64,000 nt of DNA from a bacterium (GTDB lineage: Bacteria > Planctomycetota > Planctomycetia > Planctomycetales > Planctomycetaceae): positions 124,001-188,000 of the forward strand of contig WGME01000017.1 of the NCBI GenBank assembly GCA_016125225.1, read 5' to 3'. Shown one piece after another: positions 28,304 to 60,287 of the stretch. A model generated the notes under the pieces. It did no database searches. It was not told the origin of the DNA and saw only the letters and a list, made by a program, of their open reading frames with translations. The translations under genes and the position numbers were made by a program. The number at the start of each line of letters is the position of its first letter. Positions within the stretch are counted from its first letter, which is position 1.

Positions 28304-28407
28304 GTCTTAGCCCCCGGCGAGTCGCCGGGGGTGATGGGGATGACGACGTCCAGACGCATCGGTCGTCGATGAGCCATGGCCCCCGGTCATTGACCGGGGG
28401 CTAAGAC
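28304..28407 (+). repeat. Paired-hairpin repeat element, copy 1
   Basis: The element is bounded by GTCTTAGCCCCCGG and CCGGGGGCTAAGAC and contains two hairpins: CCCCCGGCGAGTCGCCGGGGG and CCCCCGGTCATTGACCGGGGG (each 20-21 nt, perfect stems). It lies between the 3' end of ku and the 5' end of the BRCT/TPR gene, both minus strand. Compared with copy 2, the first hairpin has a compensatory T-A to C-G pair change, which suggests selection for the stem. Confidence 0.85.
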
Positions 28408-29773: not shown

Positions 29774-30823
29774 ATGTTTACCAGTACAAAACCGCCGCTG
29801 CGACGTTTCCTGGTGATCGATCGGGAACTCCGTGCGAAGACGTATCCCACGGCGGAACGTCTGGCGGAACTCACCGAAACCAATGCCAAGACCATTCGCA
29901 GAGATATTCAATTTTTACAGGATGAGTATCACGCCCCCATCGAGTTTCATCACGCGAAACATGGCTGGGAGTACACCTGCCCGACCTATCGGCTTCCCGC
30001 CGTTCTGATCACCGAAGGCGAACTGGTCAGCGTGTTTCTCGCGGCTCAGGTGTTGCCTCAGGTCCAGGGAACGCCCTATGCCGCCGATCTCGAACGGGCG
30101 ATCCGCAAGATCACCGAACTCTTGCCGGATGAGATTTCGGTCCATTGGGAGACGATCGAGCAGGCCCATTCGTTCCGGCAGTCGGTGACGACACTGCACG
30201 ATTTCGATTTGTTCCGCCAACTGGCCGATGCCGTGCTGCATCGCCAGCAGTTACGCATCCGTTATTGGACCGCCTCGCGCGAGGAAGAATGCGAACGGGT
30301 GATCGATCCCTGGCATCTCGCCTGCATCGATGGGGCCTGGTATGTGATTGCCTGGTGTCATCGACGGCAGGCCCGCCGGATGTTCGCCCCCAGTCGCATC
30401 CGCGAACTGACCGGGACGGGTGAGACCTTTGTGGTGCCCGAGGACTTTCGCATCGCGGAGTTCTTCGATGGCACGTTCCGCGTGGTGACCGACAGCAGCC
30501 AGCCGTTGCAGAGGGTGCGATTGCGGTTTGCCCCCTCGGCAGCGAAGTACATCCGCGAGAAGGTCTGGCATCTGTCGCAGAAGCTGCAGACCGCAGCCGA
30601 TGGCAGCGTAATCGTGGAATTTCACTTGCGGAATCTGTTGGAAATCCGGCGGTTCGTGATGTCCTGGGGGAGTGAATGCACGGTGCTTGATCCGGCGGAA
30701 CTGCGGGCCGACATCCACCGCGAAGCCCAAGCCATGCTCGAGCAGTCAACAGAGATCACGTTACCGGAACTGCTGCCGTCCAAAACCACACGCACCCCGA
30801 AGTCGCGCAAGGAAACCGCGTGA
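29774..30823 (+). CDS. WYL-domain transcriptional regulator of the CRISPR-Cas locus
   Basis: The 349-residue product has an N-terminal DeoR-type winged helix (about residues 11-55, with the recognition segment NAKTIRRDIQFLQD), a WYL domain (about 155-235; the motif reads WYVIAWC at 189-195), and a C-terminal WCX extension. WYL proteins bind nucleotide or nucleic acid ligands and often control CRISPR-Cas and other defence loci. It is 49 bases upstream of cas6 on the same strand, with a hairpin between them, so it probably controls the operon or is autoregulated. Confidence 0.87.
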   Translation: MFTSTKPPLRRFLVIDRELRAKTYPTAERLAELTETNAKTIRRDIQFLQDEYHAPIEFHHAKHGWEYTCPTYRLPAVLITEGELVSVFLAAQVLPQVQGTPYAADLERAIRKITELLPDEISVHWETIEQAHSFRQSVTTLHDFDLFRQLADAVLHRQQLRIRYWTASREEECERVIDPWHLACIDGAWYVIAWCHRRQARRMFAPSRIRELTGTGETFVVPEDFRIAEFFDGTFRVVTDSSQPLQRVRLRFAPSAAKYIREKVWHLSQKLQTAADGSVIVEFHLRNLLEIRRFVMSWGSECTVLDPAELRADIHREAQAMLEQSTEITLPELLPSKTTRTPKSRKETA

Positions 30824-30872: not shown

Positions 30873-31952
30873 ATGACCACACAACTCCTCACATTGCCAG
30901 AGCCGGAAGCCCGTCTGCTACCGCAGATTCGTGCCGTGCGGCTCGTCATCCGCACGCGGTGGCGGCGGCCGAATCTGATTCCGGGGCCCGTCGTGGCGAA
31001 TGTGCTGCGCGGAGCGCTCGGCATTACCTTTCGCAAGCTCGTCTGTCCCGAGGGCTGGCTCGATCATGCGTGTCATCCCTGCCCGTTGTACGCCGAGTGT
31101 GGGTATGGCCAGGTCTTCGCACCGACCCCGCCGGATGATGCCACGCAACTGCGGCTGCAGCAGGATTTGCCCCGGCCGTTTGTGATCGAACCGCCCGGCC
31201 TGCACCCCGACGAACCGATCACCGACGCTGGTCTCACGTTCCGCCTGATGTTGTTCGGCACGGCGATCGAGCGGCTGCCGTATTTCATTTCGACCTTGGA
31301 TCGGCTGGGACACGATGGTCTCGGCCGCGACCGGGTGCCCTTTCGCATCGAACAGATTGCGACCTGCCACCCGGCAGGCGACGAAGTCCTTTACACCGGC
31401 GATTCAACCACGGTGCGGCTGCCCCAGCGAACGATCACCACCGACGATCTGCTGTCTTCCCCCATCCCAACACTTGAAGAAACGGGAACACCGCTCTGTC
31501 TGCGGCTCGACTTTTTGACGCCGTTGCTGCTCAAATCGGGCAGCGGCATCGATAGCCACGGGCGTCGCATCGCGGCGACGGAAATCCGCGAGCGGCCCCC
31601 GTTCGGCGTGATCGCCCGGCGGCTGCGTGACCGACTGTCGGCGTTGTGCACATTCTTCGGCGAACCGTGGCGGCATCCCGACTTTGCCAGCCTCGGCACC
31701 CAGGCCGACCGCGTGAGCCTCGTCGATTCCCACACGGTGTGGCTCACTCGCAGCCGCCGCAGCACCCGCACCGGCGACGCGCACGAAATCAGCGGCCTCG
31801 TCGGCCACGCGACCTACGAGTTCCCGGACGACGCCACCTTCGCGGCGTTATCGCCGCTATTAAAAATCGGCGAACTCCTGCACGTCGGCAAACACGCCCC
31901 ATGGGGGAATGGTGCGATCAAGATGACGCAGTTGGTGGAGACAAAATCATGA
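30873..31952 (+). CDS. cas6: Cas6 pre-crRNA endoribonuclease
   Basis: The 359-residue product matches the Cas6 C-terminal family (PF10040-like), which cuts the repeat to make crRNAs with an eight-base 5' handle. It has four N-terminal cysteines (C58, C67, C70, C76 in VCPEGW...HACHPCPLYAECGYG) that could bind zinc, a second RAMP half with GLVGHATYEFPD, and the terminal Gly-rich RNA-binding loop LLHVGKHAPWGNGAI (335-349). His residues 337 and 341 are candidates for catalysis. Its stop overlaps the cas8 start (ATGA). Confidence 0.9.
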   Translation: MTTQLLTLPEPEARLLPQIRAVRLVIRTRWRRPNLIPGPVVANVLRGALGITFRKLVCPEGWLDHACHPCPLYAECGYGQVFAPTPPDDATQLRLQQDLPRPFVIEPPGLHPDEPITDAGLTFRLMLFGTAIERLPYFISTLDRLGHDGLGRDRVPFRIEQIATCHPAGDEVLYTGDSTTVRLPQRTITTDDLLSSPIPTLEETGTPLCLRLDFLTPLLLKSGSGIDSHGRRIAATEIRERPPFGVIARRLRDRLSALCTFFGEPWRHPDFASLGTQADRVSLVDSHTVWLTRSRRSTRTGDAHEISGLVGHATYEFPDDATFAALSPLLKIGELLHVGKHAPWGNGAIKMTQLVETKS

Positions 31953-33541
31953 CACCCCCCCTACTGAAATGGACCGGGCACCCGCTTGCCGATGTCGGCG
32001 TCGCCACGCTGTGCGCGATGGCGGACAAAGACGACCCAAGCGAACTCACACTGGAAGATCTCACAAAGTGCGGAAAACAACTAAAAACTGCCTACACGGA
32101 CGGTCTCTTTATCGCCTACCTAACCTGCGTGTTCCCCAATTCCCCTTATATCAACGCAAATCCGAAATACACGAGTGCCAGTCGAGAGATCGACATGGCT
32201 AGGCTGCTTCAGCCGCATTCCAGTCAGCCAGATGAAGGTGTTGAAGGGATTTCCTGTATCTTTTCGGGAGAGCCTGCAACACATTTTCTCAATCGCTCGA
32301 ACGTACCCATGCTCACCGGGGCGGGGGTGCTGAACTTCTTTCCGGCGGGGCTCTCGGAGATGCCGGTCGCGGCTCCGTATGTGCTGGCCATTCAGGCGTT
32401 GGCACTCGGCGGCCGTCGCAGCGAAGGGAAACTGCTGATCGTCCATTGCGATGATCCCCAGTGGACGCTGCACTTCGCACGGAAATATGTCGCCCGCAAC
32501 CGGTTCATCATCAACCTGGCGACCAGCAACCGGTTACCCACCGATGACGACCCCGACAACCTTCTGCAACGCGAATCACCCGGCGGGTTGAACAAGGAGA
32601 AGAAGCCCAAGTACCCGGATGCCAAAGCCCCGAAATCGCTGGTGATGGACGACCTGATGGAAGTCATCACCGAGCGGAACATGGGGCGGCTGGCGGAATC
32701 GTTCACATCGGTGACGGTCTATCTCCTCAGCAATTCGGGACAGGGGCCGTCGCTGGCGATCGAACAGATTCCCGGAGAATTCGTCAGCTTCCTGCAAGAC
32801 CTGCATGGCACCAAATTCAGCGCCAAGTGGAAACGGCTGGTGGCCCGGGCCTGGCGTGGTGCTGCCGTGGAAACGGAGACCGAGGAAGAGACCGGAGGAA
32901 AACGAAAACCGAAGAAGCCGCCGAAAGCCATGCCCAGCGGTCCCGGCCGTTCGCACAACGACTTGTACAACGACCTGCTCGACATCTTCGATCACGGCTT
33001 CTGCAACTGGCAGGCAGCAACCCGTTTCATCCGCCGGCATCTGCTGGCGAGGGCAAAATGTTATCGAAGCATGGCTAGAGCTGCATCATCAGACGGAATC
33101 AGCAATGACAAGTATGAACTAATCGACTGGACGTTAACTGAGTTATTCCTGACGGAGGTTCTGGGTATGGATAAAGCACGTGTTGAGATGATCAAAGACC
33201 TTGCAACACGCTTGGCGAATTTGATCTACGATCACAATGACAAAGGAGCATACAAACAGCTTGTCTTTACTGGCAAGGAATTTGAATACCGCTCGCACCT
33301 GACTAGATTGCAGCGAAAGTACGCAGAGAAGTCCAAGGATATCCCATTTACGTTCGACGAGTATGTCAATGTCTTTTTGCTAGCACCTCCGGAGGAACGG
33401 GTGAATTGGAATCTTATCCGCGACTTGATTTCCATTCGGCTTGTCGAGGTTCTTCACGAAAGGAACTTCTTAACTGAAGATGATGACGAGCCGGAACAAG
33501 ATGTTACCGACGAACGCACTGAAGAATCTGTGGATGCGTGA
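31949..33541 (+). CDS. cas8b1: Type I-B large subunit Cas8b1 (Cst1-like)
   Basis: The 530-residue product is the Cascade large subunit by position and by family segments: WTGHPLADVGVATLCAMA at the N-terminus, CIFSGEPATHFLNRSNVPMLTG (where family members usually have a CxxC finger; only one Cys remains here), NFFPAGLSEMPVAAPYVLAIQALALGG, and IVHCDDPQWTLHFARKY. A charged linker (about residues 305-335, ETEEETGGKRKPKKPPKAMP) precedes a helical C-terminal part that may act as the small subunit. Large subunits recognise the PAM. G+C drops sharply in its last third. Confidence 0.84.
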   Translation: MTPPLLKWTGHPLADVGVATLCAMADKDDPSELTLEDLTKCGKQLKTAYTDGLFIAYLTCVFPNSPYINANPKYTSASREIDMARLLQPHSSQPDEGVEGISCIFSGEPATHFLNRSNVPMLTGAGVLNFFPAGLSEMPVAAPYVLAIQALALGGRRSEGKLLIVHCDDPQWTLHFARKYVARNRFIINLATSNRLPTDDDPDNLLQRESPGGLNKEKKPKYPDAKAPKSLVMDDLMEVITERNMGRLAESFTSVTVYLLSNSGQGPSLAIEQIPGEFVSFLQDLHGTKFSAKWKRLVARAWRGAAVETETEEETGGKRKPKKPPKAMPSGPGRSHNDLYNDLLDIFDHGFCNWQAATRFIRRHLLARAKCYRSMARAASSDGISNDKYELIDWTLTELFLTEVLGMDKARVEMIKDLATRLANLIYDHNDKGAYKQLVFTGKEFEYRSHLTRLQRKYAEKSKDIPFTFDEYVNVFLLAPPEERVNWNLIRDLISIRLVEVLHERNFLTEDDDEPEQDVTDERTEESVDA

Positions 33542-34697
33542 AACTGCCGTCTTGGCGATCTCAGAATTGCATGCGGCATATCCCCTCTTAGCAAAGGTCA
33601 AACGGATGGCGTTTCTTACAGGTCTGATGTTAATTGATGCTCCGGCATCGGCTCTGAACAATGCAGGCTCCGAAGCGGGAGCCAAAACTGAAAATACAAT
33701 AGCAGTCAAGAAGATCAATACCCCAGACGGACAGTTTCCCTACGTTTCGTCCCAGGCATTTCGTTTCTGGTTGCGAACAACGCTTGAGCAGTCCGATCTC
33801 GGCTGGAAAGCTGCACCACTGGTACGACAATCGAAAATTGCCTTTTCGGAGTCAGATCCCATTTCAAATTGGGATGACGATCTTTTTGGCTATATGCGTG
33901 CCGAATCAAAAAAGGGAGACAAGGCGGAAAAGGAAGCCAATGAAGCCAAATCGAACGAGATTCTCGCGTTGGAAAAGGGACGCGAGGTGACCCGCGTCTC
34001 TCCATTCCGCGTCAGTACCTTCGTTTCTGTCACACCTGTTCGCATCGTGACGGATTTTGGCACAATGGCTCGCCATGAAGGGAACCCTGTGCCATACGAA
34101 CACGAATTCTATCGCGCGCATTTGCGCGGGCTGGTGTCGCTCGACCTCACCAGTTGTGGCACGTTCTATGATGCAGAGCGCGTGGGTTACAAGAACCTCG
34201 ATTCCTATCGTCGCGAAAAAGCGAAAGAAGCGAACTGCACGGAACTGACGATTCGCAAGCAGAAAGCGGTGCGGTTGCCCGACGAGGTCCGCCGCGAACG
34301 CGTCAGCACGTTGATCAAGGGTCTGGCGGCGTTAGGAGGCGGAGCGAAGCAGACGCTGCATTACACCGACCTGATGCCCGCCGTTGTGGTGATGGCCGTG
34401 ACCAAGGGGGGCAATCATCCGTTCTACCGGATGTTCCAGGGTACCAGATCTGGCCGAACCGAGTTGCATGCCGAAGCCGTCGAAGAGATTTTCCAGGCGT
34501 TTCAGGATGACCTGTTGTCGCCGGTGTATGTGGGCTGGGCAAAAGGTTTTCTCGATGAGGAACGGAGCAAGTTCGAGAGCTTGACGGCGAATCTGAAAAC
34601 GCCGCACGGCATCGCGAAACTCGATCATCCCCGGACCGTCCTTCTGAACCTGGCAACGGAACTGGCAAAAGATGAGCACACCGACTGGTACGCCTAA
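33534..34697 (+). CDS. cas7: Type I-B Cascade backbone Cas7 (Cst2/DevR)
   Basis: The 387-residue product carries the Cst2/DevR signature MAFLTGLMLIDAPASALNNAGSE and FPYVSSQAFRFWLRTTLE, and later LTSCGTFYDAERVGYKNL. Cas7 subunits form the helical backbone that holds crRNA. The ATG at 33534 overlaps the cas8 stop and is listed here; an ATG at 33606 just before the conserved MAFLTG is an equally good start (363 residues). G+C is low up to about 34080 and high afterwards. It overlaps cas5 by 26 bases. Confidence 0.87.
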   Translation: MRETAVLAISELHAAYPLLAKVKRMAFLTGLMLIDAPASALNNAGSEAGAKTENTIAVKKINTPDGQFPYVSSQAFRFWLRTTLEQSDLGWKAAPLVRQSKIAFSESDPISNWDDDLFGYMRAESKKGDKAEKEANEAKSNEILALEKGREVTRVSPFRVSTFVSVTPVRIVTDFGTMARHEGNPVPYEHEFYRAHLRGLVSLDLTSCGTFYDAERVGYKNLDSYRREKAKEANCTELTIRKQKAVRLPDEVRRERVSTLIKGLAALGGGAKQTLHYTDLMPAVVVMAVTKGGNHPFYRMFQGTRSGRTELHAEAVEEIFQAFQDDLLSPVYVGWAKGFLDEERSKFESLTANLKTPHGIAKLDHPRTVLLNLATELAKDEHTDWYA

Positions 34698-35526
34698 ACG
34701 CGTCGCGAAGGTGACGATCGAGGCGCCAGTGGTGTCGTTTCGTTACCCGCATTTTTTGATTGGTCAGCAGCCGTCGTTCGACGTGCCGCCCCCCTCGACC
34801 ATTTTCGGTCATGTCGCGAGCGCGCTCGGGGAATGGCCCACAGAGCCGTTGCACTTTGCCTATGCCTTTACCGCACACGGCCGGGGCAGCGATCTCGAAC
34901 ATCAGCACATCATCAGCCGCGCTCCGGGGAAACTTCCCGAGCCGATTGTCGATCCGCTGTGGAAACCCGAAGAACCCCCGCCGGGAAAAAAGCTGACGAA
35001 GAAGCAACTGGCGGCGCTCAACACGCCGCGATTGCTGGAACGGACCACCGAGGGGACGGTGCAGCCGCACAAACGCGACTTCCTGTTCGATGTGCGGCTG
35101 GAGTTGTATCTCGATCCACCGGAACTCGCGGAGGCCTTTCGGTCGCCCGTTTTTACGGTGGTGCTGGGACGCTCCCAGGACCTGGCGTGTGTCCGCCGGG
35201 TGGAAGTCGTTGACCTGTTACCGGCGACACAAGGTTACCTGGAACGCACCATCATTCCGGGTTCGATGCGTCCCCGCTTACCCTGGGGAATGACGACACT
35301 GATGCCTCGTTACATTGGCCCGGCTCCGGAACGGCAACCGGTGTTTGAGTCGTATATTGTGTTGCGAGAACGGGTCTATGTGGGCTATCCGGAGAGAACC
35401 CAGGCCCGGCAACTGTTAACCTTCGCGGGCGCCGAAGACACGTGGTGGACCGATCCCGCGACGACAGAAGACCGCGGCGGCAAACGCCTGCTGTACTTTC
35501 ACACGCTGGAGGGGGGAGCGTCTTAG
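34672..35526 (+). CDS. cas5: Type I-B Cas5 (Cas5t-like)
   Basis: The 284-residue product has the Cas5 N-terminal RAMP pattern (VTIEAPVVSFRYPHFLIGQQPSFDVPPPSTIFGHVASALGEW), in which Cas5 caps the crRNA 5' handle. An insertion at residues 95-120 is Pro/Lys-rich (PEEPPPGKKLTKKQLAAL). The stop TAG lies inside the paired-hairpin repeat that begins at 35520, so the repeat provides the natural stop codon and the last one or two residues. Confidence 0.88.
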   Translation: MSTPTGTPKRVAKVTIEAPVVSFRYPHFLIGQQPSFDVPPPSTIFGHVASALGEWPTEPLHFAYAFTAHGRGSDLEHQHIISRAPGKLPEPIVDPLWKPEEPPPGKKLTKKQLAALNTPRLLERTTEGTVQPHKRDFLFDVRLELYLDPPELAEAFRSPVFTVVLGRSQDLACVRRVEVVDLLPATQGYLERTIIPGSMRPRLPWGMTTLMPRYIGPAPERQPVFESYIVLRERVYVGYPERTQARQLLTFAGAEDTWWTDPATTEDRGGKRLLYFHTLEGGAS

Positions 35527-35608
35527 CCCCCGGTGAGTCACCGGGGGCGTAGGCTCTCATCCGCGACGATGGCACATCGGCCCCCGGTCATTGACCGAGG
35601 GCTAAGAC
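35520..35608 (+). repeat. Paired-hairpin repeat element, copy 2, at the cas5-cas3 junction
   Basis: This shorter, 89-bp copy has GTCTTAGCCCCCGG at the left end, first hairpin CCCCCGGTGAGTCACCGGGGG, second hairpin CCCCCGGTCATTGACCGAGGG (one mismatch) and CTAAGAC at the right end. It is in the same orientation as copy 1. It lies fully inside the cas operon and its first hairpin encloses the end of cas5. Confidence 0.87.
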
Positions 35609-35668
35609 CGAGTGCCACACATCGAACGGACGCAACTGATCGATCCGGACGCATTCACGGAGGTGAAG

Positions 35669-38086
35669 ATGGTGTCTTCCGAGACCTACTGGGCTAAAGG
35701 TCCGCGCGATGATGCGGTCCTCGGCGAATCACTGGCCGATCACACTCGTGCCGTCCTCCAACGCGTAGCCAGCTTGCGGACCCGCGCGCCATTTCTGAGT
35801 CAATTCGGTGATGAGCCACGCTTATGGCATCGTCTGGCACTCGCCGCCGCGGTCCACGATCTTGGCAAGACCGACCCCCGGTTCCAGCAGATGTTGAAAT
35901 CTTCCAAGCCTTACGATCAGCGACATGAAATCTTATCGCTGGCCTGGCTCGACTGGCTGCTGGGTGATGATCGCCATGAGGATCGCTTATGGATTGCGGC
36001 CGCCGTGGGTTCGCATCATCGCGACAGTTCGTTCCTCTTTGAGAAGTATAGCCTGGGCAGTGTGGTGCGCCCGACGACCAACATTGCCGACTTTCTGGAA
36101 CCGATCCCGGATGTGCTGTTCCAGCAGGCAGCTGATTACTTTCTCGATTCCATCGTGCCGGAATTGCTCTCGCTCAAGCTGCTCGATCCGGAATGGAGTG
36201 TGCCTGCCCGATGGACGCCGTCCCCCGATGATAAGCGGCTCGCGGAAACCAGCATCACCCGCCATCTCCGCTTGTGGAGCATCTGGATGCAGGACCGGCA
36301 ACCAGCCGAGGCGAAGCGGCTGGGCATTCTGACACGTGGCTTGATACTCCTCGCCGATCATGCCGGATCGGCGCAGGAGAACTTTCGCCGGATTGATCTA
36401 CTGACAGATGCGGCGGCGACGACCGCGCGGTTAGCACCACCGAAGGGGAACGCGTTCTATCCTCATCAGGATGAGGCGGGCGAAACTGTCGGTCAGGCAT
36501 TACTCATTGCACCCACAGGCAGCGGCAAAACGGAGGCGGCATTGCGTTGGGCGGCGAATCAGTACGAGCAGACCGCGGGGTATCCGCCGTTGTTCTATGT
36601 GCTGCCGTTCAAGGCGAGCATGAATGCCATGCGTCATCGCCTGGTGGAAAAACTCACGCCGGTTGCCGCGGGTGAGAAAACTCGTGGTGACTTGGTCACC
36701 TTGCAGCATTCGAGTGCGTTACAGGTGCTCTACAATCAATTGATGCAGGACGACCCGAAGACGGCCAGGCCGGCCGCCAAGTCAACGTCTCAGGCGGCAT
36801 GGCTGGCCAAACGTCAGCAGAATCTCGCTAAGCTCCACACCACGCCCCTTCGCATTCTCAGCCCGTATCAACTGCTGCGAGCGGCCTATCAACTGAAAGG
36901 GCACGAAGCCATCTGGACCGATGCGGCGGGCGGGCTCTTCATCTTCGATGAAATCCACGCTTATGAGCCTGCGCGACTGGCCCGCATTCTGGAAATGCTG
37001 CGATTCCTGATCGAGAAGTTCGGAGCAAAGGCCTTTGTGATGACGGCGACCATGCCCCCGCCAATCCGCGAGTATGTCGCCGAGATTCTCGGGCATCCCG
37101 AACCGATTCGAGCCACGAACGAAACCTATGCCCAGTTCCGACGCCATCGGCTGAGGTTGTGCGAGACCGGTTTACTCGATGATGCGACCGTGGCTCAGAT
37201 CGTCGACCGCATCCGGGAAGGCGAAGCCGTTCTGTGCGTGGCGACCACGGTTAAGCGGGCTCAGCAGCTGCAACAGAAATTGCGGGAAGCGCTCGGCGAT
37301 CAGACCGAGGTCAAACTGCTGCACAGCCGGTTCACCGGGAAAGACCGCGACGCACTGGAAACCGAGGTGAGAAAGGCCGTCGCTACCAACGCCCAGGCCG
37401 GACAACGAAAGAACATTGTTCTGGTCGCGACGCAGGTGGTCGAGGTGAGTCTTGATGTCGATTTCGATGTGCTCTTTTCCGATCCCGCCCCCATCGAAGC
37501 CCTGCTGCAGCGCTTCGGACGCGTCAACCGCAGCCGACGACCGGAACCGCACGATGTCATCGTTTGTGCCGTGTTGGACGATGCGTTCCCGGTTTATGAA
37601 GACCAACGAAAGCTCGTCGAAGCAGGGTTGCAGGTGTTACGCACGGCCGACGGATCAATCATCGATGAAAGCCAGGTGCAGACCTGGATCGATTACGTCT
37701 ACGCCGGGCCGACTGGTGCGAAAATACTTCACGATATCAAGGGAGCCGCCGACGATTTCCGAACAACCATTCTCGATCAGCTACAACCTTTCGACACCAA
37801 AGATGACCTGGAGCAGATGTTTTACGACCAGTTTGACGGCGAGGAAGTGCTGCCGAAGTGCAAAGTCGATGAGTATCGCGAATTGCTCGAAACAGAACCG
37901 ATCCAGGCCGCGATGCTGACGGTCCCCGTGAGTCAAATGCAACACCAGCGACTCGGTTGGCAAAAGCGTTTGATCAAGCCCGCCGCGTTGGGCCTGCCGC
38001 CGAAGTCACCCGATATTGCCGATGTCCCCTATGACAGCACATCGGGCTTGAAGCTCGATTTATCACCTAAAGAAGACCACAGCTAA
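35669..38086 (+). CDS. cas3: Cas3, HD nuclease fused to DExD/H helicase
   Basis: The 805-residue product has the HD nuclease first (H63 and D64 in AVHDLGKTDPRF, later RHEILSL and VGSHHRD) and then a superfamily 2 helicase: Walker A APTGSGKTEA (K287), motif II FDEIHAYEP (DEIH 427-430), motif III TATMPPP, and motif VI ALLQRFGRVNRS. It unwinds and degrades target DNA after Cascade binding. I chose the ATG at 35669 because CGGAGGTG lies right before it; an upstream GTG at 35612 is in frame but directly follows the repeat element. HD-helicase order is the common fused form. Confidence 0.93.
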   Translation: MVSSETYWAKGPRDDAVLGESLADHTRAVLQRVASLRTRAPFLSQFGDEPRLWHRLALAAAVHDLGKTDPRFQQMLKSSKPYDQRHEILSLAWLDWLLGDDRHEDRLWIAAAVGSHHRDSSFLFEKYSLGSVVRPTTNIADFLEPIPDVLFQQAADYFLDSIVPELLSLKLLDPEWSVPARWTPSPDDKRLAETSITRHLRLWSIWMQDRQPAEAKRLGILTRGLILLADHAGSAQENFRRIDLLTDAAATTARLAPPKGNAFYPHQDEAGETVGQALLIAPTGSGKTEAALRWAANQYEQTAGYPPLFYVLPFKASMNAMRHRLVEKLTPVAAGEKTRGDLVTLQHSSALQVLYNQLMQDDPKTARPAAKSTSQAAWLAKRQQNLAKLHTTPLRILSPYQLLRAAYQLKGHEAIWTDAAGGLFIFDEIHAYEPARLARILEMLRFLIEKFGAKAFVMTATMPPPIREYVAEILGHPEPIRATNETYAQFRRHRLRLCETGLLDDATVAQIVDRIREGEAVLCVATTVKRAQQLQQKLREALGDQTEVKLLHSRFTGKDRDALETEVRKAVATNAQAGQRKNIVLVATQVVEVSLDVDFDVLFSDPAPIEALLQRFGRVNRSRRPEPHDVIVCAVLDDAFPVYEDQRKLVEAGLQVLRTADGSIIDESQVQTWIDYVYAGPTGAKILHDIKGAADDFRTTILDQLQPFDTKDDLEQMFYDQFDGEEVLPKCKVDEYRELLETEPIQAAMLTVPVSQMQHQRLGWQKRLIKPAALGLPPKSPDIADVPYDSTSGLKLDLSPKEDHS

Positions 38087-38199
38087 TTTCTCGACACGGA
38101 GGGGACGATGTTTGCGAATGGTCACGCAACCGCGGCCGATAAGGTAGAGGGATTGCGCATCGGGCGTGGTCGATGGACCGTGGCTGGTGGTAGGGGCCG

Positions 38200-38661
38200 A
38201 TGTCGAAGGCGACGCGAGAATCGCTGCTGGCGGCGCTGCGGAAGCTGGTGCGCAAATGTGGCCCGGATGTCACCTTGTTCGATTTTCGCGAAGCGACGGG
38301 CATCCCATATCATTATGTCTACGACCGTTGGGGAAGCTGGACGAGGTTGCGTCAAGCCGCCGGTCTGTCGCCCCGCAAAACGCTGGCGAAAGTTTATACC
38401 GACGACGAACTGCTGCAGGCGTATCACGATGTCGCGGTGCGGGTGGATGCCTATCCCGGCATCGTGCAGTTCAATCGCTTATCACCTCATTGCTGGAACA
38501 CGCTCGCCGCACGGTTTGGCAAACACACCGAGGTTCAACGGGCGTATCTCGACTGGTTAGCACGGCTCCCGGATATGGCGAAACCGAGCTTCCTGCAAGC
38601 GTGTCCGCCGGGCTGTGAACCGACGAACGTGCCGGGCGTATACGTGGTCAGACATGGCTAA
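38200..38661 (+). CDS. HNH-repeat-type DNA-binding protein embedded in the cas operon
   Basis: The 153-residue product holds two copies of the homing-endonuclease-associated repeat (HNH_repeat, PF18780-like): residues 5-58 (ESLLAALRKLVRKCG...LFDFREATGIPYHYVYDRWGSWTRLRQAAGL) and 67-125 (TDDELLQAYHDVAVRV...FNRLSPHCWNTLAARFGKHTEVQRAYLDWL). These helix-turn-helix-like repeats bind DNA beside an HNH nuclease in other proteins, but no HNH motif is present here. It lies between cas3 and cas1 on the same strand. A strong GGAGGGG motif before an out-of-frame ATG at 38108 is unexplained. Function unknown; a regulator or adaptation accessory is inferred. Confidence 0.7.
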   Translation: MSKATRESLLAALRKLVRKCGPDVTLFDFREATGIPYHYVYDRWGSWTRLRQAAGLSPRKTLAKVYTDDELLQAYHDVAVRVDAYPGIVQFNRLSPHCWNTLAARFGKHTEVQRAYLDWLARLPDMAKPSFLQACPPGCEPTNVPGVYVVRHG

Positions 38662-38750
38662 GGGTTGAGGGCTAGCGCTAAAGGCCAGTCGGGATGTCTT
38701 ATCGCTCTTGTGATCTGCACTCAACTCTTAGCACTTAGCCCTCAGCTTTT
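38658..38750. repeat. Imperfect inverted repeat between the HNH-repeat gene and cas1
   Basis: GGTTGAGGGCTAGCGCTAA near the left end and TTAGCACTTAGCCCTCAGC near the right end are imperfect inverted arms of about 20 bases. The arm core TGAGGGCTA resembles the outer arm (GGCTGAGGGTCTTAG) of the repeat copy at 40104-40226, so it may be a decayed relative of that element. Confidence 0.45.
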
Positions 38751-38777
38751 TATCAACTCCTCTCTCGGAGCTTTCCG

Positions 38778-40097
38778 ATGCCGTTATTGCCCCCGGCCCA
38801 ACTGGTGGAACACCCCGCCGATCTGATGATCGATGTCTTTGGCACGTTTCTCGGCAAGCGGTCGGAACGGATGGTGGTCCGTTGGCGGAACAATGATCCG
38901 CCATTCCGTCGCAGTGTGATGATCAATCGCGAACAAGCCCCGACCGTTGCTGCATCGAACACCAATGCAGAGAACAGCGCATCTTCGATTGGAACCGATC
39001 AGCCCGCCTTGACCATTCATCCCGCTGACGACGCCATCACGCAACTGCGCGATCTCTGGGCGACGGAACCATTGACAGAACCGCCGCCTCGACCTGCCCC
39101 ATCCACCCGGCTGCAAACACAACTGCAAGACATCACCGGCGTCGCGGTCCCTTCTGTCACGGAGTGGTGTGAGCAGGTCGTGCCGTTGTCGCGCTTGCGG
39201 AGCGTGACGGTTTCCGGCCGTGGCGTCACCGTCAGTAGTGATCTGATTGAAGCCCTGGTCGAACGGGGCATCGCATTTTCGTTCCTCAGTCGACGGGGTC
39301 AACCGGTCGCTCAACTCAGTGCTCCAGGATTGGGGGGCACCGTGCAAACCCGCCGTTCACAACTCGCCGCTTATACCACTCCGCTGGGTGTGCAACTCGC
39401 GGTGGAATTCATTCGTGGCAAGCTGCGGAATCAGAAGCACCAGCTGCAATACTCGGGGAAGTATCTGAAGGCGGCTGATCCCGAGCGTTTTGCTCAATTG
39501 GAAAAGAAGGTCGCCGCCCTCGCCAATCTGCGGAAGCAACTGCAGGGTTTTGAAGCCGCCGACCTCGACCGTGTGCGTGATAAATTGATGGGCTATGAAG
39601 GAACCGGTGCCCGCATTTATTGGGAGGGCGTGAAGATCCTGCTCGATGGCCGCGTCGAATTCCCCGGCCGTGAAACGCGTGGGGCCATCGACCCCGTCAA
39701 CAGTGCTCTCAACTACGGCTATGGCATTCTGTATGGCCAGGTCTCGGCGGCGGTGGTCAACGCGGGACTCGAACTCTATGCCGGGTTTTTGCATGTTGAT
39801 CGACCCGGCAAGCCCGCATTGGTTCTCGATCTCGTCGAAGAGTTTCGGGCACCCGTGGTGGATCGAGCCGTCCTGGCGATCGTCAATCAAGGTTCGCCGT
39901 TAGAGACCGATGCCCACGGCCTCACCACCGCGACCCGCAAACTGGTAGCCGATCGCGTGCTGGAACGACTCTCCACGCCCGTCCCCTACGAAGGCAAACG
40001 CTGGTCGCTGGGCAACATCATTCAGAATCAGGCCCGGCATCTCGCCGTCGCCGTCCGCGGCGAAAGAGTCTATCGATCCTTCGCCAGCCGATGGTGA
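38778..40097 (+). CDS. cas1: Cas1 integrase with an N-terminal-domain insertion
   Basis: The 439-residue product is Cas1: DVFGTFLGKRSERMVVRW at the start, QVVPLSRLRSVTVSGRGVTVSSDLIEALVERGIAFSFLS, ALNYGYGILYGQ, and the catalytic residues E274 (GYEGTGARIYW), H339 (FLHVDRPGKP) and E354 (LDLVEEF). Cas1 with Cas2 inserts spacers at the leader. Normal Cas1 is about 330 residues. Here about 90 residues (41-130), rich in Ala, Asn, Thr and Pro, are inserted between two strands of the N-terminal beta domain that in most Cas1 are directly joined. The catalytic domain is complete. Confidence 0.92.
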   Translation: MPLLPPAQLVEHPADLMIDVFGTFLGKRSERMVVRWRNNDPPFRRSVMINREQAPTVAASNTNAENSASSIGTDQPALTIHPADDAITQLRDLWATEPLTEPPPRPAPSTRLQTQLQDITGVAVPSVTEWCEQVVPLSRLRSVTVSGRGVTVSSDLIEALVERGIAFSFLSRRGQPVAQLSAPGLGGTVQTRRSQLAAYTTPLGVQLAVEFIRGKLRNQKHQLQYSGKYLKAADPERFAQLEKKVAALANLRKQLQGFEAADLDRVRDKLMGYEGTGARIYWEGVKILLDGRVEFPGRETRGAIDPVNSALNYGYGILYGQVSAAVVNAGLELYAGFLHVDRPGKPALVLDLVEEFRAPVVDRAVLAIVNQGSPLETDAHGLTTATRKLVADRVLERLSTPVPYEGKRWSLGNIIQNQARHLAVAVRGERVYRSFASRW

Positions 40098-40111: not shown

Positions 40112-40218
40112 GTCTTAGCCCCCGGTCATTGACCGGGGGGCGATGAACCATCAATAGAGATTTGTCATCGATACGGATTGCAGCGAACGCCCCCCGGTGA
40201 CTCACCGGGGGCTAAGAC
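40112..40218 (-). repeat. Paired-hairpin repeat element, copy 3, at the cas1-cas2 junction
   Basis: This copy has the opposite orientation to copies 1 and 2: the CCCCCGGTCATTGACCGGGGG hairpin comes first and the GGTGACTCACC hairpin second. Its terminal inverted repeats extend to a perfect 23 bp (40104-40126 with 40204-40226), beginning GGCTGAGGGTCTTAGCC. It fills the gap between the cas1 stop and cas2 start. Confidence 0.87.
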
Positions 40219-40232
40219 CCTCAGCCCTCCCC

Positions 40233-40571
40233 ATGCCTCAACTCGAAACCACCACCGTCGTCCTCTATGACATCCCGCATGACCGCACGCGGACCAAGGT
40301 GAGCGAGAAGTGCCTCGACTTTGGTCTGGTGCGGTTTCAGTACAGCGCCTTTCACGGTCGACTCACACGCAATCGTCGCGAGGAACTCGCCCTGGTGCTC
40401 GAAAGTCTCATCGAAGTCTACGGCGGATCGATCGCCCTCATTCCGGTCTGTGCGGCGGATTGCGAACATTGGATCAACGTTTACATCGAACCGCCGCCGC
40501 TGGAGGTTCCCCCGTTAAAAGTCAAATCGGAGCCGGATGATGACCGTTCTGCCGCTGGCCCAACCGTGTGA
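40233..40571 (+). CDS. cas2: Cas2
   Basis: The 112-residue product is Cas2: VVLYDIPHDRTRTKVSEKCLDFGLVRFQYSAFHGRL, with the conserved Asp at residue 13, and a ferredoxin-like fold that pairs with Cas1. The C-terminus (residues 88-112) is extended with an EPPPLEVPPLKV tail. I chose the ATG at 40233, since the upstream in-frame ATG at 40197 is inside the repeat element. It overlaps cas4 by 35 bases. Confidence 0.92.
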   Translation: MPQLETTTVVLYDIPHDRTRTKVSEKCLDFGLVRFQYSAFHGRLTRNRREELALVLESLIEVYGGSIALIPVCAADCEHWINVYIEPPPLEVPPLKVKSEPDDDRSAAGPTV

Positions 40572-41151
40572 ATTGCCGACACCGATCCTGCGCGTCTCCG
40601 ACCTGCGCCAATGGGTCTATTGCCCACGCGTGGTCTGGTGGACCCACGTCTGCCCCGTTGGCAAAGTCGAGTCATTCAAGATGCGACAGGGTCTCGCGAA
40701 GGAACGCCGTCAGCAACGCTTACAGAAGCGACGCACCTTGCGGGCCTTCGGTTGGAGGCACGGCCACATCGAAGCCAACGTCCAACTCTTTTCGCCCGAG
40801 TTGGGACTCTCGGGCAAGCTCGACATGCTGCTGCACACCGGCGTTCAGCGCTTCCCCATCGAGATCAAATTCACTCACGGACCGGCCCGGTTGAACCATC
40901 GCCTGCAACTCGCGGGGTATGCCCTGCTGCTCGAAGAGTACTACGGCATCGCAGTCCCTCACGGTTATGTCGTCCGCCTGCCCGATGATACCGTCGATCA
41001 GATCCCGATCGATGGCCCGCTGCGCGATCTCACCTGGAAGACCATGCAGGCCCTGCGAAACACTATCCGGCACGAACGCATGCCCCCGGCGAGCACCCTC
41101 CCCGCCCGCTGCATCGACTGCGAATACCGCCACTTCTGCGGCGACGTGTGA
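40537..41151 (+). CDS. cas4: Cas4 nuclease
   Basis: The 204-residue product is Cas4, a RecB-like nuclease that trims prespacers and selects the PAM end. The iron-sulfur cysteines are C29 (WVYCPR), C192, C195 and C201 (RCIDCEYRHFCGD). The nuclease residues are D96 (GKLDML), E109 and K111 (IEIKF), and the QxxxY motif at Q124-Y128 (LQLAGYALLLEE). It follows cas2 with an overlap; in most I-B loci cas4 precedes cas1. No terminator is seen before the array. Confidence 0.92.
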   Translation: MMTVLPLAQPCELPTPILRVSDLRQWVYCPRVVWWTHVCPVGKVESFKMRQGLAKERRQQRLQKRRTLRAFGWRHGHIEANVQLFSPELGLSGKLDMLLHTGVQRFPIEIKFTHGPARLNHRLQLAGYALLLEEYYGIAVPHGYVVRLPDDTVDQIPIDGPLRDLTWKTMQALRNTIRHERMPPASTLPARCIDCEYRHFCGDV

Positions 41152-41401: not shown

Positions 41402-44400
41402 GTCACAACACCCCGCCCAACCAAAAGGGCACTGAAACCGGTAGTTCCGTGGGCGGGTATTTTCGTCCGTCCCGGTCACAACACCCCGCCCAACCAAAAG
41501 GGCACTGAAACTGCGTCCGCTTCTGGCCCACGTCCAGAAGGTTCGCGGTCACAACACCCCGCCCAACCAAAAGGGCACTGAAACGATCGTCGATTCTGGT
41601 GGAACTGGTGATGCGTGGCGGTCACAACACCCCGCCCAACCAAAAGGGCACTGAAACAACTACGAAAGCCGAAAAACATTTATTCACAGAAAGGTCACAA
41701 CACCCCGCCCAACCAAAAGGGCACTGAAACCAAAAATCCGGGCTGCTCAAGTTCTGCAGCGTATTTGTCACAACACCCCGCCCAACCAAAAGGGCACTGA
41801 AACCGTTGCTGCCCCGTCAGTTGCTCCCGATCCGCGTTTACGTCACACCACCCCGCCCAACCAAAAGGGCACTGAAACTGCGGCTGAACTGGAGCGGGAT
41901 AGCATGCCATGCAGTCACAACACCCCGCCCAACCAAAAGGGCACTGAAACGGCTGCGGAATTCATCCCGCCCCGCCCCCGGTCAACGTCACAACACCCCG
42001 CCCAACCAAAAGGGCACTGAAACATCGTCCACACAATTTTTCTCCGGGCTGCGGAATGTCACAACACCCCGCCCAACCAAAAGGGCACTGAAACACAACT
42101 TCCACGATAAGGAATATCATGGATCAATATGTCACAACACCCCGCCCAACCAAAAGGGCACTGAAACAGCGGCGAGTGAACCGCCACCCCTACTGGCAGG
42201 ACGGTCACAACACCCCGCCCAACCAAAAGGGCACTGAAACTCACTTTCCTTCCAAGGCATCGGCCACGTCCGTCCAGTCACAACACCCCGCCCAACCAAA
42301 AGGGCACTGAAACTCGAAGTCGCAGCCCGGGATCTCGTTGCGGTCTGGCGTCACAACACCCCGCCCAACCAAAAGGGCACTGAAACGCGGGAATCGCGAT
42401 GGCAATGCACTGTACGATGCGTCACAACACCCCGCCCAACCAAAAGGGCACTGAAACACCAGTCCTGACGCCAAGACTCACCCGTGTCACGTGTCACAAC
42501 ACCCCGCCCAACCAAAAGGGCACTGAAACCGGCCGGCGGGTACAACTCGTCTAATTGCTGCTGGTCACAACACCCCGCCCAACCAAAAGGGCACTGAAAC
42601 ATAAACAGGGGCATCCGTGCCCGGACAGAGAGAATCGAGTCACAACACCCCGCCCAACCAAAAGGGCACTGAAACTCAATCCAAGTTGCCTCATACTTTC
42701 TGACCATCCGTCACAACACCCCGCCCAACCAAAAGGGCACTGAAACCCCTCTTTGGCTTCGAGCAGGGGCAGGTCATCGCGGTCACAACACCCCGCCCAA
42801 CCAAAAGGGCACTGAAACGGCAACTTGATCGCGGCCGCGAACTTGGCTTGGTTGGTCACAACACCCCGCCCAACCAAAAGGGCACTGAAACAGTTCCAGA
42901 GTTTCACGCAACTCCTGTTGCAACTGAGTCACAACACCCCGCCCAACCAAAAGGGCACTGAAACACTGTCCAGCCCACAAGGAACCCGAACCATGCGGAA
43001 GTCACAACACCCCGCCCAACCAAAAGGGCACTGAAACACGACGAACTGTCAGCCGATCGGCAGGTTCTGGAATCGTCACAACACCCCGCCCAACCAAAAG
43101 GGCACTGAAACTCTTATTCCGCCGGGTCGAGACGCCTACACTGCCTTGTCACAACACCCCGCCCAACCAAAAGGGCACTGAAACCGGTTGTTCGCCGATA
43201 CGCTCTAGGCGACTATTGGGTCACAACACCCCGCCCAACCAAAAGGGCACTGAAACCCATCATCAAAGGGTCAAAGGTCGTGGGGTCGAATTGTCACAAC
43301 ACCCCGCCCAACCAAAAGGGCACTGAAACTCGACGCCTGCCGAGATCGTGACGCAGCCGCGACTGTCACAACACCCCGCCCAACCAAAAGGGCACTGAAA
43401 CGTAATCCTTCAGGCTTTTCACGAACCCGACTGGATGTCACAACACCCCGCCCAACCAAAAGGGCACTGAAACATCTTCGCGTGCTGCCAGTTCTTCGCG
43501 CCAAGGCTGTCACAACACCCCGCCCAACCAAAAGGGCACTGAAACTTTAGGGCCTGATTTGTGTGCCAAAGCGAGGCGAGGTCACAACACCCCGCCCAAC
43601 CAAAAGGGCACTGAAACTCCCCGCCAGTTCGAACGCCGCCGAACACTCCAGCAGGTCACAACACCCCGCCCAACCAAAAGGGCACTGAAACCCCTTCCTC
43701 GTCGGTCCATTCCCACGAAGCCACACTCGTCACAACACCCCGCCCAACCAAAAGGGCACTGAAACATATCGACGCCATCGTCGACCGTCTCCCGTCCCGA
43801 GGTCACAACACCCCGCCCAACCAAAAGGGCACTGAAACTTGTGAAGGCGTTGTCGGTCACAATCAGTGGACCGCCGTCACAACACCCCGCCCAACCAAAA
43901 GGGCACTGAACCGAGATTGCTTGCACCGCGGCCGGGCCGAGCACGTTCCGTCACAACACCCCGCCCAACCAAAAGGGCACTGAAACGGCGGATTCTCTGC
44001 CCTATGAATTGAATATCAAGGTCACAACACCCCGCCCAACCAAAAGGGCACTGAAACTTCTGGTGTCAGACTTCGGAAACAGCATTGCTTGTGTCACAAC
44101 ACCCCGCCCAACCAAAAGGGCACTGAAACTTGAGGACTTTCACTATGACCAGGCTTTGGCCGTGGGCTGTCACAACACCCCGCCCAACCAAAAGGGCACT
44201 GAAACCTCTTCCACCTTGCGGCCCGACTCTGACGTCATGAGTCACAACACCCCGCCCAACCAAAAGGGCACTGAAACGATTGATCGGGCGGCTGAACGCA
44301 TTGCCTGCCGCGAGGTCACAACACCCCGCCCAACCAAAAGGGCACTGAAACGGGATGAGATTGTCGGGGTCATAGTCACCTTTCAGTCACAACACCCCGC

Positions 44401-47400
44401 CCAACCAAAAGGGCACTGAAACGGGTGAGCTACCCTTTGCGAATAATGGCCGGTACATCGTCACAACACCCCGCCCAACCAAAAGGGCACTGAAACCAGT
44501 GTAGTTTCCGGCATAACCTTAGCCTCCGAAATTGTCACAACACCCCGCCCAACCAAAAGGGCACTGAAACGCGAGCAGAGCCGCTTCATCCGCAGCCGTC
44601 TGGATGGTCACAACACCCCGCCCAACCAAAAGGGCACTGAAACAGCTCTACAAAGCCACGGGTGATCTGAAGGCGGTTGCCGAGTCACAACACCCCGCCC
44701 AACCAAAAGGGCACTGAAACCGCCTGGGCATCTACGCGTCAGTGAGAGGGAGGCCGGTCACAACACCCCGCCCAACCAAAAGGGCACTGAAACATCAAAC
44801 GTGGCCTCTGTCACGTAGGCTTCGACGTCGTCACAACACCCCGCCCAACCAAAAGGGCACTGAAACTATGGCGATGGTTTTGGCGTCACCACGTCAATGA
44901 GGTCACAACACCCCGCCCAACCAAAAGGGCACTGAAACGTGTGGCGTCACTGTCGAGAATCTGCCGGACCTTGGTCACAACACCCCGCCCAACCAAAAGG
45001 GCACTGAAACAATTCGACGGCAAGGGGCGTCCGGTTGGCAAACGGTCACAACACCCCGCCCAACCAAAAGGGCACTGAAACTGCACCATGTCCGGTCCAC
45101 GGAATCCGTAAACCACGTCACAACACCCCGCCCAACCAAAAGGGCACTGAAACACAACGCCGAATACACGTCGGGGTCGTCGTATAGTACGTCACAACAC
45201 CCCGCCCAACCAAAAGGGCACTGAAACTGAGGAACGGTTGGCCTCAAAAGATGCGTTGGGGAGGGTCACAACACCCCGCCCAACCAAAAGGGCACTGAAA
45301 CCACATCATCCAAACGCGATAGGGCGTCGTCTCGCAGTCACAACACCCCGCCCAACCAAAAGGGCACTGAAACTTCCGGTCTCACCATCCCGAACCACGA
45401 ACCGTCCGTTGTCACAACACCCCGCCCAACCAAAAGGGCACTGAAACTCCAATCGGCGTCGGGAACGTACTTCTTCCAAGTCGGTCACAACACCCCGCCC
45501 AACCAAAAGGGCACTGAAACCAGTTCCCCGGCGGCGCGCTCCACCATCTCTTGAAGTCACAACACCCCGCCCAACCAAAAGGGCACTGAAACTGTCACCA
45601 GAAGTTGCACCGACGACTGCCACGTCGCCAGTCACAACACCCCGCCCAACCAAAAGGGCACTGAAACGAGTGTGGCCTGTGGGTATTTCTTGAAAATCTT
45701 GGAGTCACAACACCCCGCCCAACCAAAAGGGCACTGAAACTAGGATTACTGTCCATTGGCCGCAACAGGTGCTCAAGTCACAACACCCCGCCCAACCAAA
45801 AGGGCACTGAAACGTGAATCTAGCCAGTCCATCTCGATCATCCCTCCTCACCGTCACCACACCCCGCCCAACCAAAAGGGCACTGAAACTAGAGAATTCC
45901 ATCATTGCCACTATCGTTATCGCCGTCTTATAACCCCGCCCCGCCCACCGGGCTCTGCCCCCTTCCCCCAGTCCCCCCAGTTCCGATCTTAGTGCCCGTC
46001 ACAACACCCCGCCCAACCAAAAGGGCACTGAAACTTCGTTTTCCTTTTCCTTTCGGTGAACCATAGACCCGTCACAACACCCCGCCCAACCAAAAGGGCA
46101 CTGAAACGCGGCACCGACCTGCACCAAGGTCGGCGAGCTGTTGTCACAACACCCCGCCCACCCAAAAGGGCCCCGAAGCGCGATGGCGAGCTGCTCGGTG
46201 TAGGCTTCGATGTCTGGTCACAACACCCCGCCCAACCAAAAGGGCACTGAAACAAGTCATGACCTGTGTATCCGCAACCTGCTGGCAGTCACAACACCCC
46301 GCCCAACCAAAAGGGCACTGAAACGCCTCGGTCAGCGACACGCTGCCAATCAGAGTGCCGTCACAACACCCCGCCCAACCAAAAGGGCACTGAAACTGCA
46401 TTCTCCAATCTTCTGGCAGCGATAGACTGGGAACGTCACAACACCCCGCCCAACCAAAAGGGCACTGAAACGGATGATGTTGACGTAAGGAGCCAACTCA
46501 CCATAGAGCGTCACAACACCCCGCCCAACCAAAAGGGCACTGAAACAAGAAAATCGAACCACCGAAACTTATCGGCAGGTCTTCGTCACAACACCCCGCC
46601 CAACCAAAAGGGCACTGAAACAACACAACTGATTCCGCCTCAGTCGCTTTGAGATAGTGTCACAACACCCCGCCCAACCAAAAGGGCACTGAAACTGCAC
46701 AAAATCGAGCTCAACAAACGCGTGCGCATTGTCACAACACCCCGCCCAACCAAAAGGGCACTGAAACTTCATACTGGCTGGCATGTTCTGAGTGCGGAAC
46801 AAAACGTCACAACACCCCGCCCAACCAAAAGGGCACTGAAACTCTTGTGTTGTTCTCTCGCCGCACGGAGCCTTAGGTCACAACACCCCGCCCAACCAAA
46901 AGGGCACTGAAACCAGTGTCAGAGTTCCAATCAACGGATCGGCAATACGTCACAACACCCCGCCCAACCAAAAGGGCACTGAAACCCAACGCAGCCACCG
47001 GATTGGTTAGGTGGGCCGTGGTCACAACACCCCGCCCAACCAAAAGGGCACTGAAACTCGCTCGATAAGGACGGCATCAAAGCCGCCTGGGAGGTCACAA
47101 CACCCCGCCCAACCAAAAGGGCACTGAAACCCAACAGCCCATTCACGGTCTCTGCGGGCATGTTCAGGTCACAACACCCCGCCCAACCAAAAGGGCACTG
47201 AAACACTTGGCGACCAATGGCGAAGTGCTCCGCTATGGCAGGTCACAACACCCCGCCCAACCAAAAGGGCACTGAAACGCGTAACGTCGCACCCGCTTCA
47301 CCAACGCGGCATAGTCACAACACCCCGCCCAACCCAAAGGGCACTGAAACGGTCAGAACGACCCGTCCCAGTCACTGCCACCGGATGTCACAACACCCCG

Positions 47401-59300: not shown

Positions 59301-60287
59301 TCAGAATTCGCCCATAACCTCACCATCTTGAGTCGCCCCGGCGGAACGCCAGATGTTGAGATCGATGGAATTCGTAAAGAAGCGGACGGAACCATCGCAC
59401 AACAGGGAATTCACCCCACCGGTATGCCGACTCCGCGAGGCCCGCTGCATGTAGCTGAACTGGTTTGTCTGTGCACAGGGAGGATTCTGGGAATTGGTAA
59501 ATGTGATGGTCCCCGTGGGAACCGGTGGCACACAGTAATTCGTATTTTCCCAGTCGGTAATTGGCGAGTTGGGTGTGTTCTGCGTCGTGAAGTATCCACC
59601 ATCAGCATACCCCATGATGCGGCCGCGGAGATCGGCCCGCTTAACACCATCGAAGCCGGACCCCTGAATCAACTCGCTGACCATGACGGTGCTGGTCATT
59701 CCGTCCGTGATCAGTCGGAAATTCACTGCTCCTCGATTGGGCCGATTAGTCACGGAGGCAGAAGCATCCGTCTGCACGTTGCCGAAGGGGGCTCCTTTGA
59801 ATTCCACGCCCGTATAGGAAATCTGCTGATTCAGCGAGGCGTTGCCGTAGTTGGCGGCATAGTTGTGATGAGGGATTTCGGGGGCTGTCGGCGAAGTCAC
59901 ATTCGTGCGAGGCGTATCAGATGGGCAGGAGTAGATGCCGATTCGCGTCTGGGCCACCGCCAGATTGGGCGCCGTCGAGTAAGTTCGGCCGCTGGCTCCG
60001 CTATTGAAATCCCAGGTGTTGTAAATGGTGCTCAGCTCTAACTGCGGAAGGATATACAAGGCCCAGGTCGCATACAGTGTGCTGCGGTTGCCAGGCGGCA
60101 GACAATTGTGAGTGTCGTGGTAATTGTGCATGGCGAGACCAATCTGCTTGAGATTGTTCACACACTGCATGCGCCGCGCCGCCTCACGTGCCTGCTGAAC
60201 GGCAGGCAACAACATCGCGATCAGAATGCCAATAATGGCAATCACAACCAGCAATTCAATCAGCGTGAAAGCCGACCGGGATTTCAT
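59301..60287 (-). CDS. DUF1559 pilin-like protein
   Basis: The 328-residue product begins with a type IV pilin-like leader ([57 protein letters not shown]), the strongest single marker of Planctomycetota. The DUF1559 domain ends with the [17 protein letters not shown] motif. Its role is unknown but these prepilin-type proteins are thought to reach the cell surface. The ATG at 60287 is chosen because residues before it precede the leader. It is followed upstream by a lipoprotein gene, its usual partner. Confidence 0.93.

Follow-up and report, generated by a model that had tools for sequence, protein, structure and literature searches.

The small gene that separates cas3 from cas1 in a type I-B operon of this planctomycete contig is probably a DNA-binding gene of the host family that has entered a variable slot in an operon acquired by horizontal transfer and that has no particular tie to CRISPR. 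It encodes a two-repeat PF18780 protein without a nuclease domain. The gene is absent from the 80 sister I-B loci that we compared, and its relatives, where their surroundings were examined, occupy non-cas sites.

The operon lies in the middle of the window, by which we mean the whole 64,000-nucleotide stretch of DNA that was analysed. As listed in Table 1, it reads WYL, Cas6, Cas8b, Cas7b, Cas5b, Cas3, the ORF under study (38200-38661, hereafter the ORF), Cas1, Cas2 and Cas4, all on the + strand, and with Cas8b accompanied by Cas7, Cas5, Cas3 and Cas6 it belongs to type I-B (Pfam, PADLOC); the window Cas8b matches the PADLOC profile PDLC01387 at 4.2e-108. Given the assigned starts, the genes from cas6 through cas5 overlap, with gaps of 85 nt between cas5 and cas3 and of 99 nt between cas1 and cas2. 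The ORF sits 113 nt behind cas3 and 116 nt ahead of cas1. In the second of these spacers lies a hairpin of -39 kcal/mol (z -3.94; equally stable shuffles, 0 of 200), which a short-loop terminator scan did not report and which is a putative REP-like element or terminator. REP-like palindromes around GGCCCCCGGTCATTGACCGGGGGC also stand between genes at 28311-28407, 35525-35608 (cas5-cas3) and 40117-40218 (cas1-cas2). Elsewhere in the window, a stretch on the - strand (60113-60275) encodes a prepilin-like start that we take to belong to the DUF1559 family; both same-genus genomes contain dozens of matches to this stretch.

Table 1. Features of the type I-B operon, its array and the inserted ORF (window positions).
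Feature	Position	Strand	Basis or remark
WYL-domain regulator	29774..30823	+	Pfam, PADLOC
cas6	30873..31952	+	Pfam, PADLOC
cas8b	31937..33541	+	PADLOC; start chosen within a longer frame
cas7b	33480..34697	+	longest frame; the Herpetosiphon Cas7 starts at residue 43 of this frame
cas5b	34672..35526	+	Pfam, PADLOC
cas3	35612..38086	+	Pfam, PADLOC
two-repeat PF18780 protein, without nuclease domain	38200..38661	+	153 aa; Pfam, codon comparison
repeat 1, predicted four-helix TetR-like HTH	38200..38376	+	AlphaFold2 and Foldseek
repeat 2, residues about 60-126	38377..38577	+	remainder with repeat 2 scanned alone: 18.5 bits, cut-off 26
C-terminal tail, pattern P-x-[FY]-L ... [VI]-P-G	38578..38658	+	by eye; in 12 of 14 other close copies
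long imperfect hairpin, then TTTTT, between ORF and cas1	38656..38755	+	folding energy
cas1, with insertion in the N-terminal domain	38778..40097	+	Pfam, PADLOC, alignment
cas2	40197..40571	+	Pfam, PADLOC
cas4	40537..41151	+	Pfam, PADLOC
CRISPR array, 37-nt repeat	41402..50296		114 copies match exactly; 121 if up to 4 mismatches are allowed

The initial annotation had described a 153-residue protein between cas3 and cas1, on the strand of a type I-B operon, made almost wholly of two homing-endonuclease-associated repeats, of a kind that binds DNA in known HNH proteins, and followed by no HNH nuclease. Pfam and PADLOC confirmed the position and the operon. In the profile search that it had suggested, Pfam-A assigned a single family to the ORF, PF18780 HNH_repeat (E 1.2e-11, two stretches), and the score of 45.2 bits against a curated cut-off of 26 places the protein in that family. 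The two repeats stand in so far as there are two matching stretches and both core motifs are present (W-G-S-W at residues 44-47, R-F-G at 105-107). Residues 1-59, with repeat 1, reach 30.7 bits by themselves and so exceed the cut-off; repeat 2 is the weaker claim, because its score alone falls under it (Table 1). The lack of a nuclease was upheld too: neither an HNH nor any other nuclease family was found in the ORF with Pfam, PADLOC and NCBIfam, the last two giving zero matches of any kind, and the protein lacks the catalytic HNH domain that would make it an HNH homing endonuclease. Its top PHROG is a family of unknown function (7e-7).

Codon comparison suggests that the ORF is a genuine gene subject to purifying selection, and more than a chance frame. 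Against the same-genus copies, pN/pS was 0.31/0.69 and 0.32/0.73 for the two copies of genome G007, and 0.37/0.63 and 0.37/0.68 for the two of G008, a ratio that is rough because synonymous change is near saturation; the third codon position was the most changed. The GC content (0.60) and GC3 (0.69) of the ORF are inside the range of the cas genes.

The repeats look like TetR-type helix-turn-helix (HTH) units, by model and by profile. AlphaFold2, run on residues 1-59 with no alignment, predicted helices at 6-20, 26-33, 37-44 and 47-53 with a mean pLDDT of 89.8; the whole protein, modelled from its single sequence, reached a pLDDT of 42. In a Foldseek search of the PDB with the repeat 1 model, the best 50 of 483 matches were nearly all transcriptional regulators, many titled TetR family, with probability up to 1.00 and a TM by query of 0.59-0.76, the best E among these 50 being 0.12 and none at or below 0.001. 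A profile of 13 homologues, compared with the PDB, likewise retrieved TetR-type regulators, with AcnR at the top (E 0.0056), and Pfam TetR_N gave a sub-cut-off match on one homologue that overlaps a repeat. The predicted repeat 1 overlays the N-terminal HTH domains of AcnR (4ac6), Rv3249c (5d1w) and M. tuberculosis AcrR (6a4l). TetR regulators carry a C-terminal ligand-binding and dimer domain; the ORF protein lacks it and has instead repeat 2, for which the same fold is presumed, and a short tail, so that, unlike those regulators, it would bear two HTH repeats in tandem. Since the fold is predicted to be TetR-like, the protein likely binds DNA, and this part of the initial annotation is therefore probable.

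Homologues of the PF18780 gene occur (E<=1e-3) in 26 of 170 genomes of the host family, the own genome included; at E<=1e-8, an even draw of the phylum gave 8 of 392 genomes, of which six, again counting the own one, belong to the family. The closest come from the genus of the host, G007 with two copies (54 and 53% identity) and G008 with two tandem copies (48-49%); G089 has four (39-41%). The own genome holds no other close copy besides the ORF. In the tree the window copy groups with the G007 pair (support 83/82), which, with moderate support, fits an origin of the window copy within the genus. Twenty stretches of 3 to 20 kb that cover 21 of the better family matches were compared with ten window proteins at E<=1e-3; nothing matched except the PF18780 gene. 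By eye, the neighbours of the homologues vary between genomes, and G091, G092 and G094, of one genus, have some in common. The Cas1 family is present in 15 of the 26 homologue-bearing genomes, the own one included. In the 14 others no cas1 was found near a homologue: nine are drafts with the two on different contigs, where a contig break between cas1 and the homologue is possible, and in the five single-contig genomes (G003, G088, G089, G149 and G157) cas1 is at least about 400 kb from the listed homologue. The window is the only positive case of a homologue near cas1 among the genomes examined.

Some homologues differ from the window copy at their C-terminal ends. In the same-genus homologues L032 9869-10440, L033 9803-10380 and L034 2162-2780 a hydrophobic stretch (19-residue hydropathy 1.6-2.0) lies beyond the V-P-G tail, and the window copy stops before such a stretch. 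From its composition it is perhaps a membrane anchor; beyond it the frames run on for hundreds of codons without a stop, opposite neighbouring genes. The distant homologues L047, L050 and L051 have by eye a common C-terminal pattern, L-R-x-x-W ... S-S-[DE]-[FY] ... H-[DN]-W, and in L047, the one scanned, Pfam named no family on that stretch.

The repeat is also found in other protein contexts. In the own genome, G000:C12:80570 (L002) and G000:C41:58733 (L173) encode proteins that join the repeat to MUG113/T5orf172 domains, which we take to be GIY-YIG nucleases; the repeat itself scores 32.3 bits in the former and 25.7 bits, just under the cut-off, in the latter. The ORF protein had no phage matches and seven matches on haloarchaeal plasmids (28-38% identity over 45-74% of the query), none of which was returned by a plasmid search with a G007 copy as query. 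Among viral contigs the single-sequence query gave zero matches and an alignment query gave one, to a protein of 270 aa in which three repeats are combined with an XRE-type HTH. Because the repeat is joined both to MUG113/T5orf172 domains and to an XRE-type HTH, it seems to be a general DNA-reading module.

The operon itself has a different distribution. Among the 170 family genomes only the own one matches the window Cas8b, and among the 392 phylum genomes drawn only the own one matches its PADLOC profile. The Cas8b query found no relative in the genome collection either; the Cas7 pair did find relatives, and 80 of the 119 were taken in, the plasmid pHAU01 among them. A Cas1 query against 245 phylum genomes gave seven at E<=1e-30, the own included, and neither Cas8b nor the PF18780 gene was found in five stretches fetched from Cas1-positive phylum genomes. 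None of the 80 sister loci carries a PF18780 homologue, by tblastn at E<=1e-4 (0 of 80) or by a six-frame HMM search with a model of 15 homologues (0 of 80; best E 0.89, 9 bits). The same HMM recovered 28 of 28 family loci, some of which had gone into the model; scores ran from 31 to 220 bits overall and from 31 to 178 bits in the 18 positives outside it (L010-L027). Two matches of P0001 were set aside as due to chance: one of 43 residues to the pHAU01 stretch (E 0.03), which lies on the other strand from cas8b, and one to L072 (E 0.84).

Two sister operons are instructive about the order of the genes. The nearest operon, from a Proteobacteria MAG (L075; Cas7 56%, Cas1 52% and Cas8b 42%), has the window's cas order, Cas6-8b-7-5-3-1-2-4, but passes from cas3 to cas1 without the PF18780 gene; no WYL gene was detected in its stretch. 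The operon of the Herpetosiphon aurantiacus plasmid pHAU01 (WYL-Cas8b-Cas7-Cas5-Cas3-Cas6-Cas1-Cas2-Cas4) has the same cas genes as the window, but with cas6 between cas3 and cas1, and again lacks the PF18780 gene. Both cas3 and cas1 are present in 40 of the 80 sister stretches, with cas6 between them in 30 and not in 10, one of the latter having cas1 upstream of cas8b. Compared with the Herpetosiphon Cas1, the window Cas1 carries about 85-100 extra residues inserted in the N-terminal domain, and that of L075 has a different, shorter insertion at about the same place. The initial annotation had taken the protein to be fixed in the cas operon and had suggested a Cas role, which recurrent linkage of homologues between cas3 and cas1 would have favoured. 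That proposal is not borne out: such linkage was seen in none of the sister loci and in none of the 14 other cas1-bearing genomes, and both observations that it had named as speaking against a Cas role, homologues away from CRISPR loci as far as examined and same-order sister operons without the gene, were made.

The place where the gene sits is variable in the sister operons. Gaps of at least 250 nt were counted at 6 of 44 cas3-cas6, 3 of 31 cas6-cas1 and 6 of 9 cas3-cas1 junctions, in sum 15 of 84, compared with 6 of 298 at the cas8b-7, 7-5, 5-3, 1-2 and 2-4 junctions. Five of the 15 (L075, L079, L102, L113 and L145) have no same-strand ORF of at least 60 aa listed in the gap, which comes partly from an unaligned cas1 start, and without them the boundary count is 10 of 84. 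The Fisher p values, 8e-7 for 15/84 and 4e-4 for 10/84, are guides only, as the loci are related and one locus may yield two gaps. The WYL-cas8b edge is also variable, with 7 of 35 gaps of at least 250 nt. Ten boundary ORFs, hand-picked from eight sister loci, were scanned with Pfam; each matched a family, and nine exceeded the curated cut-off. The families are DUF433 (L076), HepT-like and Polbeta (L086), TPR (L098, sub-cut-off), HSDR_N (L091), RelB-like (L093), 23S_rRNA_IVP (L090), HTH_3 and HigB (L121, a stretch in which cas1 was not seen) and DUF6883 (L153). We take HepT with the nucleotidyltransferase in L086, and HigB with the HTH in L121, to be toxin-antitoxin pairs. Six of the ten lie on the operon strand, and the RelB-like, HTH_3, HigB and DUF6883 genes on the opposite one. 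Judged from these gene contents, unrelated genes can enter sister operons between the effector and the adaptation genes, and linkage seen there at a single locus is therefore weak evidence.

We propose that a small DNA-binding gene resident in the host family landed between cas6-8b-7-5-3 and cas1-2-4 of a type I-B operon that would have been acquired horizontally. Each repeat would form a TetR-like helix-turn-helix, and with two per chain the protein would read two neighbouring DNA sites; it would probably be transcribed with the operon and would serve a target of its own, regulatory or selfish, without particular connection to CRISPR. A late insertion is the simplest account because the gene is native to the host lineage and the operon, as sampled, is not, and because the related operons examined lack the gene and the slot takes strays. 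With the examined relatives elsewhere and the related operons without the gene, a local passenger is likelier than a new immune part. Since the own genome has no second close copy, relocation, rather than duplication, would be required, and comparison of the host with same-genus genomes showed no empty or donor site for it. The aspS gene, which stands beside one G007 copy, is on contig C5 in the own genome, and blastn of that site against the G007 stretch gave no likeness outside aspS, which means only that no copy is there. In G007 and G008 the left flank of the cas operon is scattered over several contigs, and matches of the right stretch were almost all to a single dispersed sequence. For the flanks of the ORF (38087-38199 and 38662-38777) the few loci tried offered no counterpart, the one 15-nt match being in the window. 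Against the insertion, an intact, conserved gene on the operon strand also fits a useful role, and four of the ten sister boundary genes lie on the opposite strand, unlike the ORF. A closer clade that carries the gene could be missed, because the nearest sister is 42-56% identical and 80 of 119 relatives were examined.

An inserted HTH protein might also have been recruited locally, binding the cas promoter, the leader or the 38656-38755 region and so tuning the adaptation genes, which we consider unlikely. Its predicted fold, its strand and the purifying selection would suit such a role, as would its place directly upstream of cas1, with a strong hairpin and T tract between; the linkage, however, was seen once only and in 0 of 80 sisters, and the operon already starts with a WYL regulator. 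Nor does a 15-nt motif from the upstream regions of the G007 copies, present twice in one and once in the other, exceed chance in the window (one match with up to 3 mismatches, 2.09 expected). Position, selection and hairpin would fit control of the adaptation genes just as well as they would fit a passenger beside a REP-like element. Similarly unlikely is a tandem TetR-like HTH protein, made of homing-endonuclease-type repeats and captured where effector and adaptation genes meet in one lineage's I-B operon, that controls cas1-cas2-cas4 or acts in leader recognition; if true, it would be a lineage-specific regulator separating adaptation from interference.

It is improbable that the protein is the remnant or half of a homing endonuclease, with the DNA-binding arm kept and the catalytic part of an HNH or GIY-YIG nuclease lost. 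The two repeat proteins with MUG113/T5orf172 domains in the own genome speak for it, as do two of the four G089 PF18780 genes (L037 8635-9201 and L038 11041-11487), each of which lies no more than 1 kb from a separate HNH-type gene; one of the two HNH-type neighbours scores under its Pfam cut-off. Against it, Pfam scans of four close and two distant homologues gave no nuclease family in any of the six, which in this resemble the ORF, and the tail is common to most close copies; nuclease-free homologues with a common tail argue for a standing form rather than fresh decay. Present sampling suggests an old stand-alone clade of many genera with conserved tails. One crude regex found no HNH-like motif in the 64-kb window, and a regex for HNH motifs over 31 loci, in only 9 of which the frames were recognised, found none in those 9. 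In the type I variants I-E2 and I-F4 an HNH nuclease is fused to a Cas protein and cuts (PMC12669027); the ORF has only the name HNH in common with them, differing in that it has no nuclease and that Cas3 is present in its operon. Within the partial coverage of our literature search, no paper with the phrase 'homing endonuclease associated repeat' was found, nor one in which 'HNH_repeat' goes together with 'CRISPR', and a search on CRISPR-linked accessory genes found nothing. An IHF-like host factor for spacer integration at the leader, which a small and probably DNA-binding protein adjoining cas1 could be, is very improbable, given the sister operons that have cas1-cas2-cas4 but not the PF18780 gene.

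The insertion of a resident gene, as the preferred reading, removes a false lead, namely that of a DNA-binding gene, lying in a cas operon, that is probably no cas gene. The boundary between cas3 and cas1 in this I-B lineage appears to admit unrelated genes, some of them presumably toxin-antitoxin parts, and the TetR-type HTH reading of the PF18780 repeats would give the stand-alone repeat proteins a likely job.
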